Notes under the pieces: model-generated
The model's input: the letters and a program-made list of their open reading frames with translations, nothing else
Database searches by the model: none
What the model was told of the DNA's origin: nothing
Position numbers and translations under genes: made by a program
NCBI RefSeq assembly: GCF_014137975.1
Contig: NZ_JACGWZ010000002.1
Location: forward strand, 372,001-436,000
Direction: 5' to 3'
From: Halosaccharopolyspora lacisalsi
Lineage (GTDB): Bacteria > Actinomycetota > Actinomycetes > Mycobacteriales > Pseudonocardiaceae
DNA: 64,000 nt
Shown here: piece by piece, positions 36,174-49,078 of the stretch
Layout: every line of letters begins with the position of its first letter
Position numbering within the stretch: the stretch's first letter is position 1

Positions 36174-36509
36174 TCAGGACTCCGGCCTGCCGTGGCCGCG
36201 GGGTGGCGGGATCTCGGTACGGCCGGTCGCGGTGTCGTGCCGCACGCGCGGAGCCGCGGGAAACACCCGGTCCCGAGGCAGCCGGTCACGGAACTGATGA
36301 CGGATGAGCTCGGCATCGGACACGGTCCAGGTCACCACGATCTCGCCATCGCGAAGACCTCCGCCGGTCTGGTCCAGCCAGCGGACCGCGTGGCGCACCA
36401 CCAACGCGTGCCGGGCCTCTCGCTCGGCCAGTTGGGCAGCGATGGCACACAGGTGCCGCCAGCGCTCGGGGTCGAAGTGGTCGGTGTGGACAGTGGTCTG
36501 CACGGACAT
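36174..36509 (-). CDS. Hypothetical protein, 111 residues
   Basis: ATG 36509 follows CGGGAG. The body (FDPERWRHLCAIAAQLAERE then ARHALVVRHAVRWL and GEIVVTWTVSD) is helix followed by strand, with a disordered Pro/Arg-rich tail. I recognise no family. It lies between the frameshifted DUF2599 gene and the SLATT relic, all on the minus strand, so it may belong to the same decaying block. Confidence 0.5.
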   Translation of the reverse strand: MSVQTTVHTDHFDPERWRHLCAIAAQLAEREARHALVVRHAVRWLDQTGGGLRDGEIVVTWTVSDAELIRHQFRDRLPRDRVFPAAPRVRHDTATGRTEIPPPRGHGRPES

Positions 36510-36849
36510 TCGGCACTCCCGGTGATCAGACGACCACGTCCAAGTGAAACCGAGGTCGAGCACGCGGGAATACCGACAAATGGGCCCGATCCCGAGCGAA
36601 CGCGGGACCGGCGGAGTGAAGGTGATACCCGAGGTCGGCTCAACCTGGTGCAGGTCCACGAGGTCTGACGGATTCCGGGAACTCGGTGGCTCCGGTCAGC
36701 GCGGCTGTGGCTCTCTTCTCGTACCCGTGGTGTGGGGATGTCCGAACGACAGGCGGTCCGGTGAGGTCGCTGCTCGGGGAAGCGCGATGCCGAGGTGGGA
36801 CCCGGAAGTGCCGGGTCACTCGTCGTGTGACGAACACCAGGTGCTGTGC
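36510..36849. other. Intergenic stretch between small gene and SLATT relic
   Basis: About 340 bases. The minus-strand frame that follows the SLATT core stays open here but no longer resembles the family. No hairpin or promoter was identified. It probably includes the decayed 3' end of the SLATT gene. Confidence 0.4.
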
Positions 36850-37400
36850 TCACGACTGATCGCAGCGCTGGAGCCTGCTCCCGGGGCAGGGAGAGATCGT
36901 GGCTGGCAACGATGTAGGCCTGCGAGACGGTGGTGTGCTGCAGGGCCGCCGACCAGGCGACGAACGCGACCACGGTGGTGGCGATGATTCCGGCGGGGTC
37001 GAAGGAGACCACTCCGAACGCCTTGGTCAGCGCTTCCACCACGCCGGCGATCTCGAACAGCAGCACCAGTGTCTGGTAGCGACGGGCTCGACGTCGGTGG
37101 AACAGTGCCTTGTTCGCGTACCAGCCTGCTGGTCGGTGATCCGCCCGGTCAGGTAGCTGCGCCTGCGGTCCGGTCGGCAGCGCGCAGCTCGCGCATGTGT
37201 GCACTGAGCGCGGGTGCTCCGGTCGGCACCAGTCGCGAAGTCGGGAGATCACGTTGCAGGGCGGCCAGCCGCTCGGTGAATACCCGGTCGGCCTCGATCG
37301 ACGACAGGGACAGCGGAGTGAAATGCGGCTGCTCGGTCTGTTCACCCTCCTGCTGGGCGGGATCTTCGGGATGCGCGTGCTGGTGGGAGGCGGGGGTCGG
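36850..37400 (-). pseudogene. SLATT/DUF4231-domain membrane protein relic
   Basis: One minus-strand frame gives TEQPHFTPLSLSSIEADRVF and FTERLAALQRDLPTSRLVPT up to MRELRAADR. A second gives RRRSYLTGRITDQQAG. A third gives GWYANKALFHRRRARRYQTL and two hydrophobic helices (LVLLFEIAGVVEAL and GIIATTVVAFVAWSA), then QAYIVASHDLSL. Together they form a DUF4231/SLATT protein with two transmembrane helices, split by at least two frameshifts. SLATT proteins have been proposed as pore-forming effectors in bacterial conflict systems. No partner gene is intact here. Ends are approximate. Confidence 0.65.
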
Positions 37401-39965: not shown

Positions 39966-41408
39966 TCAGACGGTCGCGGCGGGACGGTTCCAGGGGCGGG
40001 CCCGTTCGAAAGCGCGGGCGGCCCTCAGGACGCGGGCGTCGCTGTGGCGGGGTCCCACGATCTGGAGACCGACCGGGAGACCGTCGGACGTGAAACCGCA
40101 GGGCACACTGGCGGCCGGTTGCTGGGTCATGTTGAACGGATAGCTCAGCGGAGTCCAGCCGGTCCAGCGTGGCGTGGTGGATCCGGCCGGTACTTCCGCG
40201 TCGGCTTCGAAGGCCGGGATCGGCACGGTGGGGGTCAGCAGCAGGTCGTAGGTCTCGTGGAAGGCCCCCATGCGCTGGCCGAGCTTCATGCGGGTGTCGG
40301 TGGCCTCCAGGTAGTCCTGAGCGGAGTAGTCCAGACCTTGACGGCAGACCTGGGCCAGGCCGGGGTCCAGCAGCTCCCGTTGGGCGTCGGTGAGGTGGTC
40401 GGTGGATTTGGCGGCACCGGAAAACCACAGCACGTGGAAGTCCTCGACAGGATCGTCGAAACCGGGGTCGGCCCGCTCCACGCTCGCCCCCGCCTCCTCG
40501 AAGGCCCGCACCGCCTCGGCGACGATCTCGGCGATCTCGCTGTCCACGGTGGCGAAACCGAGGTCGGGACTGTAGGCCAGCCGCAGGCCGCGCACCCCGG
40601 CGTCGAGACCCTCCACGAAGGATCCGCTCGGGGGCGGCAGGGCCGACCAGTCCCGACTGTCGGGTTCGCACAGCACGTCCATCATCAGGGCGGTCTCGGT
40701 CACCGTGGTCGTCATCGGACCCGCGTGCGCCAAAGTGCCGAACGGACTGGCGGGATAGTGCGGAATGCGGCCGTAGGTGGGCTTGAGGGTGCAGATCCCG
40801 CAGAACGCGGCGGGAATGCGCACCGATCCGCCTCCGTCGGTGCCGATGGCCAGCGGGGCCATCCCGAGCGCGACGGCCGCGGCCGCACCGCCGCTGGACC
40901 CACCGGCGGTGCGGGTGGTCTCCCACGGGTTGCGGGTGGCACCGGTCAGCGGGCTGTCGGTCACGCCCTTCCACGCCAGTTCCGGGGTGGTGGTCTTGCC
41001 GACGAAGACCGCGTTGTGCTCACGCATCCGTGCCACGGCGGGAGCGTCGACGGTCCAGGACTGGTCGGGGCACACGGTGCGGGACCCGCGCAGGGTGGGC
41101 CAGTCCCGGGTGAGGAAGATGTCCTTGATCGAGGTCGGAACCCCGTCGAGGCGCCCGACCGACTGTCCGCGCTGCCACCGCCGCTCGGAGTCCCGTGCCT
41201 GCAGCAGGGCGTGCTCGCCGTCGACGAGGCAGAAGGCGTTGACGGCCGGATCGGCCTCGGCGATGCGCTCCAGCGTGGCCTCGGTGGCCTCCACCGGGGA
41301 CAGCTGCCCGGACGCGAAGGCCTCCAGCATCTCCGTGGCGGTCAGGTCCGCGGCCGACGGTGTCGTGACCGGGGTGGGGGTGGTGCTCGGTGCCGTGGTC
41401 TCGCTCAT
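39966..41408 (-). CDS. Amidase (amidase-signature family)
   Basis: 480 residues from ATG 41408. The Ser-cisSer-Lys triad is visible: Lys in [11 protein letters not shown], cis-Ser in [16 protein letters not shown], nucleophile Ser in [16 protein letters not shown]. It should hydrolyse a carboxamide to acid and ammonia in the cytoplasm. It lacks a GatA context (no gatB or gatC nearby), so it is catabolic rather than for tRNA. The start overlaps the stop of the D-2-hydroxyacid dehydrogenase gene (TGATG), so the two share the GntR-operator promoter. Confidence 0.88.
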
Positions 41409-42388
41409 CAGATGCTCTCCGATCCACTGACGTAGCCGCGATGTTTGTCCACGACGTTGCGCAGCCGGTCGTCGGCGGCGTAGCCGGCCAGGTTCGTCGT
41501 GAACAGGGCGACCAGCTCCTCGGTCCACCCGAGCGTGTCGCCGGACATGTGCGGGGAGACGAGCACGTTGTCCATCTCCCACAGGGGGGAATCCTCGGGG
41601 AGCGGTTCGACGTCGAAGACGTCCAGGGCCGCTCCGGCGATGGTGCCGGCGACCAGGGCCTCGACGAGGTCTTCCTGAACGACCAGCTGGCCGCGCCCGA
41701 CGTTGATCAACCGAGCACTCGGCCGGAAACGCGCCAGCATCTCGGCATCGATCATCCCGCGGGTGCTCTCGGTCAGGGGAGCGGCCAGCACCACGTAGTC
41801 GAACTCGCCGACGACCTCGTGCAGCGCCTCGGAGGCGTGCACGTAGCCGAAGTCGGGGTCCTCGGCGCGGCTGGTGCGTCCGGCTCCGACCACCGACAGC
41901 CCCGCCGCCGACAACTGGGTGGCGATGGCCCGCCCGATCGGACCGGTGCCGACCACGAGCGCCTTCTTGCCCTCGATGCGCTCGGTCTCGCGGTGCTGCC
42001 AGCGCTTGTGGTCCTGCAGCCGCACGCTGGTGTGCAGGTCCTTGGCCAGGGCCAGCACGGTGGTCAGCACGTACTCGGCCATGGGGCGGTCGAAGATGCC
42101 GCGGGAGTTGGTCACCACGACTTCGGAGTCCCGCAGCGCGTCGAACAGCAGCCGATCCACTCCGGCGCTGGCGACGTGGATCCAGCGCAGCTCGTCGGCG
42201 GCGGAGAAGGCCTCGCTCACGGCCTCGGACAGGAAGTGCCAGACGAACAGCACGTCGGCACCGCCAAGTGACTCGGCGAGCGTGTCCTCGGTGGCGTAGC
42301 GCACGGTGGCCAGCCGCTCGACGTCGGTCATCGCGGGCGGGTGGTTTCCATCGTGCAGGACCACGACGGTGGGAGAGCTCGCGTTCAT
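41408..42388 (-). CDS. D-2-hydroxyacid dehydrogenase family protein
   Basis: 326 residues from ATG 42388, behind AAGGCAGG. The NAD-binding motif is [15 protein letters not shown], the substrate-binding/catalytic residues are Arg in [11 protein letters not shown], Glu in [12 protein letters not shown] and His in VSPHMSGDT. It interconverts 2-oxoacids and D-2-hydroxyacids. It is the first gene of the left arm of the GntR-controlled cluster; the operator at 42479-42492 lies 91 bases upstream. Confidence 0.88.
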
Positions 42389-42453: not shown

Positions 42454-42481
42454 TTGACACGCTACGAAGCACTCGTAGGAT
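42454..42481 (+). promoter_or_regulatory. Consensus-like promoter of the DUF3830 operon
   Basis: TTGACA (42454-42459), 16-base spacer, TAGGAT (42476-42481) on the plus strand, about 80 bases before the DUF3830 start. The -10 box runs into the GntR operator, so bound regulator would block polymerase. Confidence 0.6.
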
Positions 42482-42492
42482 TGTCAACAATC
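42479..42492. promoter_or_regulatory. GntR operator copy 1, GATTGTCAACAATC
   Basis: Inverted repeat GATTGT-CA-ACAATC between the divergent D-2-hydroxyacid dehydrogenase and DUF3830 genes. The core TTGTCAACAA contains GT and AC at the positions usual for FadR-type GntR sites. Near-identical copies lie at 43889 and 47767. Confidence 0.8.
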
Positions 42493-42562: not shown

Positions 42563-43057
42563 ATGACCAGGTACTTGTCGATCACGTTGCAGCACCGTGA
42601 CGTGACGTGCGTGGCCGAACTGCTGGACAAGGACGCCCCCCGAACCTGCGAGGCGGTCTGGCAGGGGCTTCCCCAGGCCGGCCCGGTCCACCACGCCAAA
42701 TACGCGCGCAACGAGGTCTACACGATGGTGCCCCGCTTCGCGGGCGCCGAACCCGGCCAGGAGAACCCGACGGTGACCCCGATCCCCGGTGACCTCGTGT
42801 ACTTCTCCTTCGACGGGGGGATGCTCGACCGCGAGTTCAAGGAGGAGAAGGACCTCCAGGACCTGTCGGGCGTCATCGATCTGGCGATGTTCTACGGCCG
42901 CAACAACCTGCTGATCAACGGTGACGTCGGGTGGGTGCCCGGCAACGTCTACGGCGCGGTGGTGGAGAACCTGGCGGCCTTCGCCGAGGCCTGCCACGAC
43001 GTGTGGCGCAGCGGCAGCGTCGGGGAACGTCTGATCTACCAGCGGCACTCGGGCTAG
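42563..43057 (+). CDS. DUF3830 family protein (cyclophilin-like fold)
   Basis: 164 residues. The order TCEAVWQGLPQAGPVHHAKYARNEVYTM, PGDLVYFSFDGGML, GVIDLAMFYGRNNLLIN and GWVPGNVYGAVVE is the DUF3830 pattern. The family is predicted to have a cyclophilin-like barrel and is often encoded beside racemase-like proteins, amidases and dehydrogenases. No reaction has been assigned to my knowledge. It is the first gene of the right arm, 15 bases before the racemase-like gene. Confidence 0.85.
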   Translation: MTRYLSITLQHRDVTCVAELLDKDAPRTCEAVWQGLPQAGPVHHAKYARNEVYTMVPRFAGAEPGQENPTVTPIPGDLVYFSFDGGMLDREFKEEKDLQDLSGVIDLAMFYGRNNLLINGDVGWVPGNVYGAVVENLAAFAEACHDVWRSGSVGERLIYQRHSG

Positions 43058-43072: not shown

Positions 43073-43831
43073 ATGCCACCCGAAGGACTGGACACGGTGT
43101 GGGGACCCGAACCCCAACGGGGCGTGGGAGTGGTCGCCCCCTTCGACCTGGGACTGGACCGGGAACTGTGGCGATGGGTGCCCGGCAACGTCTCGCTGTA
43201 CCTGACCCGCACGGCGTTCGTGCCGGTGCCGGTCACCGTGGAGATGGCCTCGATGATCAGCGATGAGGCCTCCGTGCACGGTGCCACCCGTGACCTGCTG
43301 GCACCCGAACCGGAGGTGGTCGCCTACGCGTGCTCCTCGGGGAGCTTCGTCCACGGCGCCACCGGGGAGCTCGGGCTGCGCCGGGTGATGCGCGACGCGG
43401 GAGCCCCCGCCGCGGTGACCTCGTCCGGGGCGTTGGCGGAGGCGTTGGAGGTGCTGGGGGTGAGCCGGCTGGCGATCGCGACCCCCTACGTGGCCGCGGT
43501 GACCGAGTGCCTGCACGGTTTCCTGGGCGAGTACGGCGTGGAGGTGGTCTCCAGCGTGGGGCTGGGTCTGCTCGGCCAGATCTGGAAGGTCACCTACAAC
43601 CAGGTGGTCGACATCGTGCGCTCGGCCGACCGCGTCGAGGCCGAGGCCATGTTCATCAGCTGCACGAACCTGCCCACCTACGACATCATCGCCTCTTTGG
43701 AACAGGAGCTGGGCAAGCCCGTGCTCACGGCCAACCAGGTCACCATCTGGGCGGCCCTGCGCCGCATGGGGGTCACGGCCGTGGCGCCGGACCAGGCGTT
43801 GATCCGGGCGCTGCCCGCTTCCGCGGCGTAG
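43073..43831 (+). CDS. Asp/Glu racemase superfamily protein, maleate isomerase-like, two-cysteine form
   Basis: 252 residues. Two pseudo-symmetric halves carry the catalytic cysteines of the Asp/Glu racemase, maleate isomerase and arylmalonate decarboxylase superfamily: Cys87 in AYACSSGSFVHG and Cys197 in FISCTNLPTYD. The ending GKPVLTANQVTIW is typical of the maleate isomerase and EutA branch. The reaction may be a racemisation or cis-trans isomerisation of a dicarboxylate. AAGGAGG touches ATG 43073 directly, so the true start could be GTG 43097. It is co-transcribed with DUF3830. Confidence 0.85.
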   Translation: MPPEGLDTVWGPEPQRGVGVVAPFDLGLDRELWRWVPGNVSLYLTRTAFVPVPVTVEMASMISDEASVHGATRDLLAPEPEVVAYACSSGSFVHGATGELGLRRVMRDAGAPAAVTSSGALAEALEVLGVSRLAIATPYVAAVTECLHGFLGEYGVEVVSSVGLGLLGQIWKVTYNQVVDIVRSADRVEAEAMFISCTNLPTYDIIASLEQELGKPVLTANQVTIWAALRRMGVTAVAPDQALIRALPASAA

Positions 43832-43888
43832 GACTCACCGATTACGAAAAAGTGTCGCCCTTTCGGGTGTGCGGTCTACAGCGGGTAA

Positions 43889-43902
43889 CATTGTCAACAA
43901 TC
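43889..43902. promoter_or_regulatory. GntR operator copy 2, CATTGTCAACAATC
   Basis: Differs from copy 1 only in its first base. It lies 64 bases upstream of the second racemase-like gene (start 43966), which leads the transcript that includes the GntR gene itself, so autoregulation is expected. Confidence 0.8.
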
Positions 43903-43965
43903 GACCACCCGCGTGGCGAGGGCCGCGTCCCCACCGGGGCGGACCAGGCGACAAGGAGGACACCC

Positions 43966-44742
43966 GTGGCACACACTGCGGGAATGCTTTACCCGGGGTA
44001 CAGCGCCGAGGACGACTATCCCACTCTCGAAGGCCTGCTCGGGGAAGGCGTCCGGCTGCCCCTGGTGCACACCCTCATGCGGCATGACGCCCACCGCGAG
44101 GACGCGCTGCTCGACGTCGGCGGCTCCGACGTGCTGGCCACCGGCGCCCGCCGACTGCTCGACCACGGCGTCGACTCGGTGGTATGGGCCTGCACCAGCG
44201 GAAGTTTCGTCTTCGGCTGGCACGGAGCCCAACAGCAGATCCGGCAGCTGCGGGACGTCACCGGAACGGCGAGCTCGAGCACCTCGTTCGCGTTCGTGCA
44301 TGCCGCGGCCTCCCTCGGCCTCACCCGGGTCGCCGTGGCCGCGACCTACCCCGACGACATCGCCGAGCGCTTCGCCGGGTTCCTGCGCACCGCCGACATC
44401 GAGGTCCTGAGCCTGGCCAGCCGCGGCGTGGTCACCGCCGCCGAAGTGGGCACCCTCGGCCGTGAACAGGTGCTGGAGTTCGCGGCCGCCCACGACCACC
44501 CCCGGGCCCAAGCGCTGCTGATGCCCGACACCGCCCTGCACACGGCGGCCTGGCTCGACGATCTCGAAGCCCGGTTGGGCAAGCCCGTGCTCACGGCCAA
44601 CCAGGTCAGCGCCTGGGAAGGCCTGCGCCTGGCCGGCCACGTCGAGACGCACTCCGGCCTGGGCGCCCTGTTCAGCCGGGGTGGTCACGTCGAGGTCGAA
44701 GCGGTCGAGACCGGAACCCTCGCGGACTCAAGGAGATGGTGA
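43966..44742 (+). CDS. Asp/Glu racemase superfamily protein, single-cysteine form
   Basis: 258 residues from GTG 43966, behind AAGGAGGA. It is a paralog of the preceding protein: VWACTSGSFVFGWHG keeps the first cysteine (Cys76) and GKPVLTANQVSAW the C-terminal motif. The position of the second cysteine is Asp188 (LLMPDTALHTAAW). One-cysteine members of this superfamily, such as arylmalonate decarboxylase, do different chemistry, though there the retained cysteine is the other one. It could act as a decarboxylase, hydrolase or partner subunit. It sits four bases before the GntR gene. Confidence 0.85.
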   Translation: MAHTAGMLYPGYSAEDDYPTLEGLLGEGVRLPLVHTLMRHDAHREDALLDVGGSDVLATGARRLLDHGVDSVVWACTSGSFVFGWHGAQQQIRQLRDVTGTASSSTSFAFVHAAASLGLTRVAVAATYPDDIAERFAGFLRTADIEVLSLASRGVVTAAEVGTLGREQVLEFAAAHDHPRAQALLMPDTALHTAAWLDDLEARLGKPVLTANQVSAWEGLRLAGHVETHSGLGALFSRGGHVEVEAVETGTLADSRRW

Positions 44743-45435: not shown

Positions 45436-46060
45436 GGCGGGATACATTTCGGACGGTCCCCACGTCGGCACCGTCACCTCGTCACCGACCGAGAGCCTGC
45501 CCGCGCCGGTGACGACGATGTTCGGCCGGAAGCGACTCGCGGGAAGTGGCACGGACCCGGTGGCGAGCCTGCGGTTGAGCGAGTCCAGGGAGGACTCCGA
45601 CAGGAGGTGTATCGGGCAGCTGTCGGCGTAGCCGGACCGTCCCGGCGTGTGGCCGCCGGTGATCCGGTCGTGCTCCGGTGGGACTCGGACCAGTCTGCTC
45701 CCGGCTCCGAGGGTCCGCGAAAGCCACTCGGCCACCACATCACCTTGGTCGATCCCCCGGTAGGCAGTACCGAACGGAGTGACGCCCCGACGGGGCCCGG
45801 TGGTGTCGACATCGACCTCGACCGAGCCGGTGCCGGGGGCGCCGAGGACGAGCCGGGTGCCCTCGGCGTCGATGTCGGGACGGATCGACGCCATCCGTGG
45901 ATGCGTGCGCTGCGTCCGGTGGGCGCCGTCCTGGCCGATCACCATGAAACTGCGGTCGTGTTCGAGCCCGGTCGTCGTCACCGTGGAGGTGGTCACCGCG
46001 ACCCCGGCACATCCCTTGACGGGTAGCAGACCAGATCGGCGACGCGCGGTGCGGGCCCTC
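45436..46060 (-). pseudogene. MOSC-domain protein, frameshifted and 3'-truncated
   Basis: The minus strand reads RVADLVCYP, then after a missing G at about 46022 VKGCAGVAVTTSTVTTTGLE and HDRSFMVIGQDGAHRTQRTH. The MOSC N-terminal domain continues through PPEHDRITGG and YADSCPIHLLSESSL to RFRPNIVVTGAGR. The last 60-100 residues, including the usual MOSC cysteine region, are absent at the GntR end, and no start codon is visible. MOSC proteins bind molybdenum cofactor or activated sulfur. Gene loss here does not affect the regulon genes. Confidence 0.7.
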
Positions 46061-46218: not shown

Positions 46219-47697
46219 TCACAGACCGCCGACGGCGACGTACTTGGTTTCCAGGAACTCCTCGATGCCGATCTTGCCGCCCTCGCGTCCCAGACCGGAT
46301 TGCTTGACCCCGCCGAACGGGGCGGCCGCGTTGGAGACCACACCCTGGTTGAGCCCGACCATGCCGGTGTCCAACGCCTCCGAGATCCGCAGCCCGCGTT
46401 GCAGGTCCCGGGTGTAGAGGTAGCTGACCAGGCCGTACTCGGTGTCGTTGGCCTCGGCGACCACGGAGGACTCGTCGGTGAAGGTGGCGATCGGTGCCAC
46501 GGGCCCGAAGATCTCCTCGCGCCGCAGCCGGGCGTCGGTGGGCACCTCGGTCAGCACCGTGGGCTGGTAGAAGTGCCCCCGGGTGTCGTCGCGCTCGCCG
46601 CCGAGGACGACCTTGGCGCCGCGTTCGACGGCGTCGGTGACCAGTTCGTCGACCTTGTCCAACTGGCGGGCGTCGATCAGCGGGCCGACCTCGATCTCGT
46701 CGCTGACGCCCCGGCCGATGCGCAGTGCGCTCATCCGCTCGGCCAACCGCCGGGAGAACTCCTCGGCCACGTCGGCGTGGACGTAGAAACGGTTGGCCGC
46801 GGTGCAGGCCTCGCCGACGTTGCGCATCTTGGCCAGCATCGCCCCATCCACGGCCGCATCCAGGTCGGCGTCGTCGAACACCAGGAACGGGGCGTTGCCC
46901 CCCAGTTCCATGGACGTCTTCAGGACCTGCTCGGCGGACTGCTCGATGAGCGTGCGGCCGACGGCCGTGGAACCGGTGAACGTGAGCTTGCGGGCACGTC
47001 CGTCGCGCAGCATCGGCTCGGTGACCTGACCGGCGCTGCTGGTGGTGACGACGTTGAGGACCCCGTCGGGCAGGCCGGCCTCCTCGAGGATGGCCGCCAG
47101 CGCCAGCATCGACAGCGGGGTCTGCTGGGCGGGCTTGACGACCATGGTGCAGCCCGCCGCGATCGCGGGCCCGATCTTGCGGGTGCCCATGGCCATCGGG
47201 AAGTTCCACGGAGTGATCAGCACCGCGGGCCCGACCGGCTGGCGCATCACCAGAAAGCGGCCGGTACCACTGGGTGAGACCGCGTAGTCACCGTCGATGC
47301 GCACGGCTTCCTCGGAGAACCAGCGGAAGAACTCGGCGGCGTAGGTGATTTCGGCGCGGGACTCGGCCAGCGGCTTGCCCATCTCCAGGGTCATCAGCAG
47401 CGCGAGGTCCTCGTGGCGCTGTGTGATCAGTTCGAACGCCCGCCGCAGGATTTCCCCGCGCGCCCGCGGGGGGTGCTGTGCCCAGCTGTGCTGGGCGTCG
47501 TCGGCGGCGGCCAGCGCGGCCAGCCCGTCGTTGGCGGTGGCATCGGCGACCGCGCACAGCCGCTGCCGGTTCGAGGGGTCCTCGACGTCGTAGGTGCTGT
47601 CCGTCTCGGCGGCACACCACTTCCCACCGATCAGTAGCTGCTTGGGCACGGCCTGAACGACGGTGTCTTCGCCGGAGAGTTGTTCGGGGGAGTTCAT
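46219..47697 (-). CDS. NAD(P)-dependent succinate-semialdehyde dehydrogenase-type enzyme
   Basis: 492 residues from ATG 47697. All catalytic motifs are intact: PWNFPMAMGTRKIGPAIAAG, ELGGNAPFLVFDDADLDAA with the general-base Glu, and GEACTAANRFYVH with the nucleophile Cys. The layout matches GabD-like enzymes that oxidise succinate semialdehyde or a related semialdehyde to the acid. It is divergent from a class III aminotransferase with GntR operator copy 3 between them, and the two enzymes make a transaminase-plus-dehydrogenase pair as in GABA breakdown. Confidence 0.9.
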   Translation of the reverse strand: MNSPEQLSGEDTVVQAVPKQLLIGGKWCAAETDSTYDVEDPSNRQRLCAVADATANDGLAALAAADDAQHSWAQHPPRARGEILRRAFELITQRHEDLALLMTLEMGKPLAESRAEITYAAEFFRWFSEEAVRIDGDYAVSPSGTGRFLVMRQPVGPAVLITPWNFPMAMGTRKIGPAIAAGCTMVVKPAQQTPLSMLALAAILEEAGLPDGVLNVVTTSSAGQVTEPMLRDGRARKLTFTGSTAVGRTLIEQSAEQVLKTSMELGGNAPFLVFDDADLDAAVDGAMLAKMRNVGEACTAANRFYVHADVAEEFSRRLAERMSALRIGRGVSDEIEVGPLIDARQLDKVDELVTDAVERGAKVVLGGERDDTRGHFYQPTVLTEVPTDARLRREEIFGPVAPIATFTDESSVVAEANDTEYGLVSYLYTRDLQRGLRISEALDTGMVGLNQGVVSNAAAPFGGVKQSGLGREGGKIGIEEFLETKYVAVGGL

Positions 47698-47766
47698 GGT
47701 CGGTATCGCCCCTTTCGGGGGTCGGCGGTGGACACGGCGCGACTGTGATGGTTGCATGTCCGCAGA

Positions 47767-47780
47767 GATTGTCAACAATC
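47767..47780. promoter_or_regulatory. GntR operator copy 3, GATTGTCAACAATC
   Basis: Identical over 14 bases to copy 1. It lies between the semialdehyde dehydrogenase (start 47697, minus) and the aminotransferase (start 47828, plus), placed to control both. Confidence 0.85.
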
Positions 47781-47827
47781 ATACAGTTCGTGTCGCCGGT
47801 TCCGTGCGGCACGGTTGGGAGCCGATC

Positions 47828-49078
47828 ATGGCCGAACTTTCCCCGGCCCTCAAACAAGCCACCCCGGTCGTGGCTGCCCGAGGCGAAGGGGTCCACCTCT
47901 ACGACGAGGACGACCGGCCCTACCTCGATTTCACGGCCGGGATCGGCGTCACCAGCACCGGCCACTGCCACCCCAGAGTGGTGGAAGCGGCCCAACGCCA
48001 GGTGGGCACCCTCATCCACGGCCAGTACACGACCGTGATGCACCGTCCGCTGCTGGAACTGACCGAACGACTCGGCGAGGTGCTGCCGACCGGACTGGAC
48101 CGGATGTTCTACCTCAACTCCGGCAGCGAAGCCGTCGAGGCCTCCGTGCGGCTGGCCCGGCAGGCCACCGGTCGTTCCAGCATCATCGCCTTCCAAGGAG
48201 GGTTCCACGGCCGCACCATGGGTGCGGGCGCGTTGACCACGTCGGGAACCAAGGTCCGCGCCGGCATCGGGCCGATGATGCCGGGGGTGACGTTCTCCCC
48301 CTTCCCCGAGTCCTACCGGCACGGCTGGTCCCAGGAGGAAGCCGTGCGTTTCGCGCTGGCCGAACTCGACCACGTGCTGGCCACCACGTGCGCCCCGGCC
48401 GACGCCGCCGCGTTCATCGTCGAACCCGTCCTCGGCGAGGGCGGCTACGTGCCGGCGCCACCGGAGTTCCTCGCCGGGTTGCGGGAACGCGCCGACCGGC
48501 ACGGGATCCTGCTCATCGCCGACGAGGTCCAGACCGGCGTGGGCCGCACCGGCCGGTTCTGGGGCCTCGACCACGCCGAGGTCGCCCCCGACGTGCTCAT
48601 CACCGCCAAGGGCCTGGCCAGCGGCTTCCCCCTGTCGGGGATCGCGGCCTCCCAGCAGCTGATGTCGCGGGCATGGCCCGGGTCCCAGGGCGGGACCTAC
48701 GGCGGCAACGCCGTGGCCGCCGCGGCCGCGATCGCCACGCTCGACGTCATCGCCGAGGAAGGCCTCGTCGACAACGCCGCCGAACAGGGCCTGCGCCTGC
48801 AGGAGGGACTGCGCAAGGTCGCCGCCGGACACCCCGCCATCGGTGACGTGCGCGGTCGCGGGCTGATGATCGGCAACGAGTTCACCACCGCCGACGGGCA
48901 GCCGGACACGGCCACCGCATCCCGCGCGCACCAGGCCGCCGCCGAGCGCGGTCTGCTGCTGCTGACCTGTGGCCCCCACGGCAACATCGTGCGCATGATC
49001 CCCCCACTGGTGGTCACGGCCGACCAGGTCGACGAGGCCGTGACGCTGTGGGAGCAGGCCGTGACCGCAGCCACCTGA
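47828..49078 (+). CDS. Class III aminotransferase (4-aminobutyrate/acetylornithine type)
   Basis: 416 residues. PLP-binding segments are FYLNSGSEAVEASVRLAR, FQGGFHGRTMGAGALT, EPVLGEGGY, LIADEVQTGVGRTG and the Schiff-base lysine in LITAKGLASGFPLSG (about residue 262). It transfers the terminal amino group of an omega-amino acid, giving a semialdehyde for the divergent dehydrogenase. ATG 47828 has GGGAG five bases upstream. An in-frame start further upstream would cover the operator and is less likely. Confidence 0.9.
   Translation: MAELSPALKQATPVVAARGEGVHLYDEDDRPYLDFTAGIGVTSTGHCHPRVVEAAQRQVGTLIHGQYTTVMHRPLLELTERLGEVLPTGLDRMFYLNSGSEAVEASVRLARQATGRSSIIAFQGGFHGRTMGAGALTTSGTKVRAGIGPMMPGVTFSPFPESYRHGWSQEEAVRFALAELDHVLATTCAPADAAAFIVEPVLGEGGYVPAPPEFLAGLRERADRHGILLIADEVQTGVGRTGRFWGLDHAEVAPDVLITAKGLASGFPLSGIAASQQLMSRAWPGSQGGTYGGNAVAAAAAIATLDVIAEEGLVDNAAEQGLRLQEGLRKVAAGHPAIGDVRGRGLMIGNEFTTADGQPDTATASRAHQAAAERGLLLLTCGPHGNIVRMIPPLVVTADQVDEAVTLWEQAVTAAT

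Follow-up and report, generated by a model that had tools for sequence, protein, structure and literature searches.

A Cys/Asp protein of the Asp/Glu racemase superfamily and its two-cysteine paralogue in a conserved, candidate (hydroxy)ectoine regulon of actinobacteria

Members of the Asp/Glu racemase superfamily differ in the residues they carry at two catalytic positions. Natural arylmalonate decarboxylase has Gly74 and Cys188, and the features by which this enzyme is recognised are Gly74, Cys188 and Gly189 together with a dioxyanion hole formed by Thr75, Ser76 and Tyr126 (PMC4996985). Its engineered G74C/C188S variant (structure 3ixl), with a single cysteine at position 74, is described in PMC12576825 as still decarboxylating, with inverted product stereochemistry and, before further changes were made, 20,000-fold more slowly. 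In maleate isomerase, a covalent succinylcysteine intermediate is present in a C194S mutant, as the title of structure 2xed states. According to PMC10156859, two cysteines go along with reversible reactions and unequal ("unbalanced") pairs with one-way reactions. The E. coli L-Asp/Glu-specific racemase EcL-DER (Thr83/Cys197) is cited as such an unequal pair in PMC12661438, which also describes the two-cysteine OpaE as nearly one-way, so that the balance of the pair is not the sole cause of direction.

One member of the superfamily, EutA, is linked to the breakdown of (hydroxy)ectoine, where it has been proposed to act either as a racemase, inverting the hydroxyl group of hydroxyectoine ahead of EutB/EutC, or as part of EutABC after ring opening (PMC5924519, PMC13188858). 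The Eut/Doe clusters outlined in PMC5924519 comprise a GntR-superfamily regulator, an aminotransferase and a succinate-semialdehyde-dehydrogenase (SSADH)-like dehydrogenase, and some of them carry EutA or a hydroxyacid dehydrogenase. Actinobacteria account for a large share of the known ectoine synthases (PMC5924519). A doeBDAC cluster has been noted in Tsukamurella (PMC7192451), and the actinomycete clusters in a 2026 survey are only provisional ones based on EutD/EutB (PMC13188858), the words Streptomyces, Saccharopolyspora, Pseudonocardia and racemase being absent from the main text of that survey.

The locus presented here lies in a stretch of 64,000 nucleotides from Halosaccharopolyspora lacisalsi (contig NZ_JACGWZ010000002.1, positions 372,001 to 436,000), which at its full length we call the window. 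Two genes on its forward strand encode P2, a two-cysteine Amdase/EutA-like protein of 252 aa (43073..43831; Cys87 and Cys197), and P3, an Amdase-family protein of 258 aa with a GTG start (43966..44742; Cys76 and Asp188), as established by translation, Pfam search, alignment and structural modelling. Both exceed the curated cut-off of 25.9 for Pfam Amdase (PF17645), P2 with 92.9 and P3 with 88.1 bits; they are the only two matches in the whole genome and share 36% identity across 163 aligned residues. Their AlphaFold2 models (pLDDT 92.4 and 90.9) display the superfamily fold, maleate isomerase and arylmalonate decarboxylase matching them at Z scores of 31.4-32.4. For P3 the closest chains by structure are tied, namely maleate isomerase 4fq5 (Z 32.4), 3ixl (32.3) and 3dg9 (32.0), and its best match among PDB profiles is 3ixl, the engineered decarboxylase. 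Structure 4ix1 from Rhodococcus opacus is a relative, yet no closer than arylmalonate decarboxylase.

Genomes with P3 were drawn from two sources. In an order sample of 298 genomes, 54 contain P3 at E <= 1e-20, or 53 after leaving out G181 (E 8e-21, 36% identity), and from named genomes, in which 140 relatives were confirmed, the best 80 were taken, which belong mainly to Saccharopolyspora, Actinomadura, Pseudonocardia, Nocardiopsis and Streptomyces. The neighbourhood of P3 is highly conserved among these best 80 of 140 loci. A DUF3830 protein (42563..43057, forward strand, 164 aa; PF12903, 198 bits), related to the solved structure 3kop, is present in 78/80 and P2 likewise in 78/80, and the GntR/FCD regulator that follows P3 (44746..45435, forward strand) in 70/80. 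Divergent from DUF3830, on the reverse strand, are a D-2-hydroxyacid dehydrogenase (41408..42388; 79/80) and an amidase-signature amidase of the PRK06169 group, above the cut-off of that model (39966..41435; 79/80). A second divergent pair consists of an SSADH-like aldehyde dehydrogenase (46219..47757, reverse strand; 24/80) and a class III aminotransferase (47696..49078, forward strand; 60/80), both with provisional starts; the two proteins fall under the curated NCBIfam cut-offs and are as similar to GABA enzymes as to ectoine enzymes. A GntR-superfamily regulator, an aminotransferase and an SSADH-like dehydrogenase are thus shared with the Eut/Doe clusters, and an EutA-like protein and a hydroxyacid dehydrogenase with some of them. 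By contrast, the present locus has no EutD over the cut-off, it contains an additional amidase, DUF3830 and a second, Cys/Asp paralogue, and its regulator is of the GntR/FCD type, unlike the MocR-type EnuR of the Eut/Doe clusters. In addition, the window holds a MOSC-domain coding stretch (45466-45996, reverse strand) that comprises the N-terminal barrel and the beginning of MOSC (profile positions 4-55 of 120) and that, in a scan of that interval only, appears truncated where it runs up against the GntR gene. The reverse strand also encodes, at 36335-37345, a protein whose SLATT_1 two-transmembrane domain is of a type usually tied to defence systems.

Exact copies of the palindrome ATTGTCAACAAT stand at three sites of the window, all of them within or next to promoter regions of the cluster: between the divergent dehydrogenase/amidase and DUF3830/P2 genes (42480..42491), upstream of P3 and the GntR gene (43890..43901), and around the starts of the divergent aldehyde dehydrogenase and aminotransferase genes (47768..47779), where a later aminotransferase start would place it outside the gene. 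With up to two mismatches allowed, the window yields six matches (the three sites on both strands) against 0.43 expected, and none of 100 shuffles reached six, the largest count being four. Throughout the genome of 5.37 Mb, ATTGTCAACAAT is found exactly four times and the reversed-pattern control not once. The fourth site (G000:C2:153723-153734, locus L182) lies ~0.2 kb upstream of a glutamate-dehydrogenase-like gene (170 bits vs a cut-off of 620), which suggests nitrogen recycling within the same regulon. Among the best 80 of 140 named relatives, 72 loci possess the exact core TTGTCAACAA; the GntR gene accompanies it in 70 of these, the other two being cut by a contig edge, and is found in 0 of the 8 loci without the core. 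Since the presence of the gene tracks that of the core, the adjacent GntR protein probably binds the ATTGTCAACAAT site. An earlier note on this DNA had described a paralogous racemase-superfamily pair, one member with Cys87 and Cys197 and the other with Cys76 and Asp188, adjoining DUF3830 and governed by the same operator. The translations, the Pfam scores and models, the DUF3830 match, and the shuffles and genome search for the sites ahead of both genes bear this description out.

The same note considered that P3 had lost its second catalytic cysteine, and named orthologues with Cys188 as the observation that would speak against a meaningful Asp. In an alignment of 110 P3 rows (that of the window and those of 109 further loci, of which 29 belong to the order sample and 80 are named ones, the best 80 of 140), Cys76 is present in 110/110 within the motif W-A-C-T-S-[GA]-S and Asp188 in 110/110 within P-D-T-A, and a cysteine at position 188 in none. 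Similarly, Cys87 and Cys197 of P2 are found in all 103 rows of its alignment, 7 of the 109 loci having yielded no P2 row. Cysteines at both catalytic positions, as in two-cysteine racemases and isomerases, are therefore a property of P2 and not of P3. Twenty further rows of the family comprise 15 Cys/Cys (one locus twice), 2 Cys/Asp, 2 Cys/Glu and 1 Cys/Gly, the two Cys/Asp rows being the P3 orthologue of genome G129 and a Nitratireductor protein. In a tree of 41 of the 84 rows (P3 and P2 rows thinned to every third, all others kept and one duplicate removed), all Cys/acid proteins form one clade of 17 with support of 100/98, in which three distant relatives with Asp or Glu join P3, and outside of which fall both P2 and the EutA of S. 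meliloti; the placement of the Nitratireductor protein is less sure because of its long branch. As Asp188 is invariant and the acid-bearing rows share a clade, the acidic residue at the second position is, on alignment and tree, the mark of an old subfamily, and P2 and P3 are, by the same tree, old and separate subfamilies. The claim of a loss is thereby not upheld, and recent loss or decay of a second cysteine in P3 is ruled out by the Asp in 110/110 rows and by the old acid-bearing clade. Among the Cys/Glu proteins are P3-like paralogues at L174 (4211-4942) and L175 (4072-4809), from two genomes of one genus that both also possess P3. A weak superfamily match at L180 (4865-6730, reverse strand) has Cys/Gly at the two aligned positions and adjoins a Cys/Cys member.

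Profile alignment places Asp188 of P3 on residue 188 of arylmalonate decarboxylase (Cys, or Ser in the mutant) and Cys76 on position 74. In the models, Asp188 is two residues past strand 183-186, just as Cys197 of P2 is two past strand 192-195. Alignment and model topology thus put Asp188 at the catalytic position, and not away from the active site, the other observation that the earlier note had held to be damaging. Thr77, Ser78 and Tyr128 of P3, kept in 39/39 representatives, align with the carboxylate-holding residues Thr75, Ser76 and Tyr126 of the dioxyanion hole, and Glu15-Asp16-Asp17 is likewise kept in 39/39. In P2 the first dioxyanion-hole position varies (Thr in 13/26) and the second is Ser in 25/26.

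The closest known enzymes each differ from P3. EutA (TIGR02990) is the best NCBIfam match of both P2 and P3, and fold, superfamily and an ectoine gene neighbourhood are common to them; however, P2 scores 106.1 and P3 94.5 bits against a cut-off of 318, which the S. meliloti EutA control passes with 462.9, and this EutA is Cys/Cys where P3 is Cys/Asp and branches apart from it. With maleate isomerase P3 has in common the fold (Z 31.9 for 2xed and 32.4 for 4fq5) and, as judged from the superfamily alignment, the first cysteine, but Asp replaces the second cysteine in P3. In EcL-DER, another unbalanced pair of the same superfamily, it is the first position that is changed, and the residue is neutral, whereas in P3 the second is changed and acidic. 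P3 thus fails the tested features of a canonical EutA, of arylmalonate decarboxylase and of a two-cysteine isomerase.

The resemblance to the G74C/C188S mutant, which extends from the fold and the top PDB profile match to the carboxylate-holding Thr, Ser and Tyr and the single cysteine at position 74, raises the question whether P3 is its natural counterpart, i.e. a cofactor-free decarboxylase in which Cys76 alone donates the proton and Asp188 does no more than line the pocket. The mutant does decarboxylate (PMC12576825), and P3 keeps the residues of the dioxyanion hole. Nevertheless, we regard this reading as quite improbable: of Gly74, Cys188 and Gly189 P3 has none (0/3; Cys76, Asp188 and Thr189 instead) and P2 only the Cys188 equivalent (Cys87, Cys197, Thr198), P3 scores 89 against an NCBIfam cut-off of 225, its invariant Glu15-Asp16-Asp17 stands, by residue number only, where decarboxylases have the large-pocket Pro14-Pro15, and position 188 is never neutral in the 110 P3 rows.

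Alternatively, P3 could serve P2 as a partner subunit, either without catalysis of its own or as a half-site, in which case Asp188 would stabilise the assembly. The two genes do travel together: P2 is found in 78/80 loci (best 80 of 140), and a full-length P2-type protein in 53/55 P3 genomes searched, fragments being all that was found in the other two (G037, G227). Yet in the 53 it lies less than 8 kb from P3 in 46 and elsewhere in 7, where the distant gene may be a paralogue; P3 has its own operator in the window; and Cys76, Thr77, Ser78 and Tyr128, which a pseudoenzyme would not need, are kept without exception. A partner role consequently strikes us as decidedly improbable.

The main clue to function is the ectoine context, which was absent from the earlier note. 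Within the 298-genome order sample, ectoine synthase EctC is present in 53/53 P3 genomes vs 50/245 others (Fisher 3e-30, ignoring kinship), and ectoine hydroxylase EctD in 51/53 vs 31/245, the two P3 genomes without an EctD match being G004 and G129. EhuB of the ectoine importer exceeds its cut-off in 36/53 P3 genomes vs 7/245 others (1.9e-26, ignoring kinship). Shared ancestry was handled in these tests by a genus count only, in which 17 genera have both EhuB and P3, 3 P3 only, 6 EhuB only and 51 neither (1.7e-9). Both associations hold within EctC genomes, of which 50 lack P3: EhuB is present/absent in 36/17 genomes with P3 vs 5/45 without (p 8e-10), and EctD in 51/2 vs 31/19 (p 1e-5), kinship again being ignored. 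The window's genome has EctD and two EctC, and no EhuB above the cut-off; among 50 named P3 genomes checked (50 of the 80 loci), 46 have EhuB over the cut-off.

Physical linkage points in the same direction in part of the loci. In 4 of 10 P3 genomes of one genus, ectB-ectC-ectD-DUF3830 run co-directionally beside amidase-dehydrogenase-P2-P3-GntR, with 5.0 to 5.4 kb between P3 and ectC (family names checked in L169). Genes of the ehu importer adjoin the cluster on the DUF3830/amidase side in 8/80 loci (best 80 of 140), all from Streptomyces; four subunits are present in seven of these and three in L111, whose stretch ends there. All four were above the NCBIfam cut-offs in L099, and elsewhere one subunit of L111 was scanned. 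Within ~16 kb, genome G129 combines DUF3830, amidase, dehydrogenase, P2, an EutD homologue (389 bits, under the cut-off of 613), an ArgE/DapE-type deacylase, EhuABCD, P3, GntR, aldehyde dehydrogenase and aminotransferase; the interval from ehuB to P3 contains an operator core, and the importer is 1.1 kb from P3 there and 11 kb in G111. G129 is also the exception among the EhuB loci retrieved from the order sample, 29 of these 30 lacking the exact operator core. The importer is therefore usually outside the regulon, and general control of EhuB loci by the GntR protein is not supported. In Nocardiopsis gilva, ehuABCD adjoins ectD and rises with salt (PMC5884947), so that co-occurrence with the importer can reflect osmoprotection, which the importer may also serve in P3 genomes. 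A similar gene set is found in an alphaproteobacterium, where, on a plasmid of Sinorhizobium sp. CCBAU 05631 (L125), the vicinity of a P2-like protein (40% identity) contains ehuBCDA together with an aldehyde dehydrogenase, a Glu/Leu/Phe/Val dehydrogenase and an aminotransferase that bears the name EctB.

Out of EutB, EutC, EutD and EutE, the ectoine hydrolase EutD was the one sought genome-wide. It is over the cut-off neither in the window's genome (best 157 of 613 bits) nor in any of the 298 sample genomes; weaker matches at E <= 1e-70 occur in three of the latter, of which only G129 has P3. This lack of EutD, together with the GABA/SSADH-like aminotransferase and aldehyde dehydrogenase, would fit a cluster that degrades another amide or amino acid (GABA-like, a lactam, or hydantoin-like), the ectoine link then being due to shared ancestry and lifestyle; a DUF3830 gene of Novosphingobium (27% identity) is accompanied by a dimethylformamidase-like gene as well as SSADH and urea genes. 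No clear substrate emerged from plasmid relatives of DUF3830 and the aminotransferase, for which three of the records retrieved have no annotated features. Against another substrate stand EctC in 53/53 P3 genomes of the sample, the ectB-ectC-ectD-DUF3830 adjacency and the G129 locus, and we hold it to be unlikely, albeit worth keeping in mind.

The reading that we favour, with confidence somewhat above even, is that of an undescribed actinobacterial regulon for (hydroxy)ectoine catabolism in which a reversible isomerase with two cysteines (P2) works beside a one-way Cys/Asp proton-transfer enzyme (P3), and here we infer the substrate, the reaction, its direction and the role of each enzyme. 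P2 would be an epimerase/isomerase resembling EutA. P3 would hold the carboxylate of its substrate, a (hydroxy)ectoine-derived amino or hydroxy acid, by Thr77, Ser78 and Tyr128 and transfer a proton between its two faces, one lined by Cys76 and the opposite one by Asp188, a pair whose "unbalanced" nature would make the step one-way. Conversion of the product towards aspartate would then fall to the amidase, the hydroxyacid dehydrogenase, the aminotransferase and the aldehyde dehydrogenase; the first of these may stand in for the deacetylase, and the last two may have the roles of Atf and Ssd. A more radical version, in which we place little faith, is an EutD-independent pathway for hydroxyectoine/ectoine in which P3, perhaps helped by P2 and DUF3830, would open the ring, a racemase-fold protein then acting as an amidine hydrolase, and so supply the first step, to which the favoured scheme assigns no enzyme; Cys76 would then attack the carbon of the cyclic amidine, with Asp188 either activating water or holding the amidinium.

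The earlier note believed the combination of the pair with DUF3830 to be undescribed. In agreement with this, the literature searched, which covered few subscription papers, contains no mention of DUF3830 and no description that we recognised of the P2/P3 cluster. The breakdown of ectoine in Actinobacteria is barely described, and a widespread, tightly conserved regulon without EutD would be a strong new candidate for it. If the proposed chemistry is correct, the Cys/Asp pair of P3 would be a naturally occurring example of the single-cysteine arrangement engineered in arylmalonate decarboxylase.
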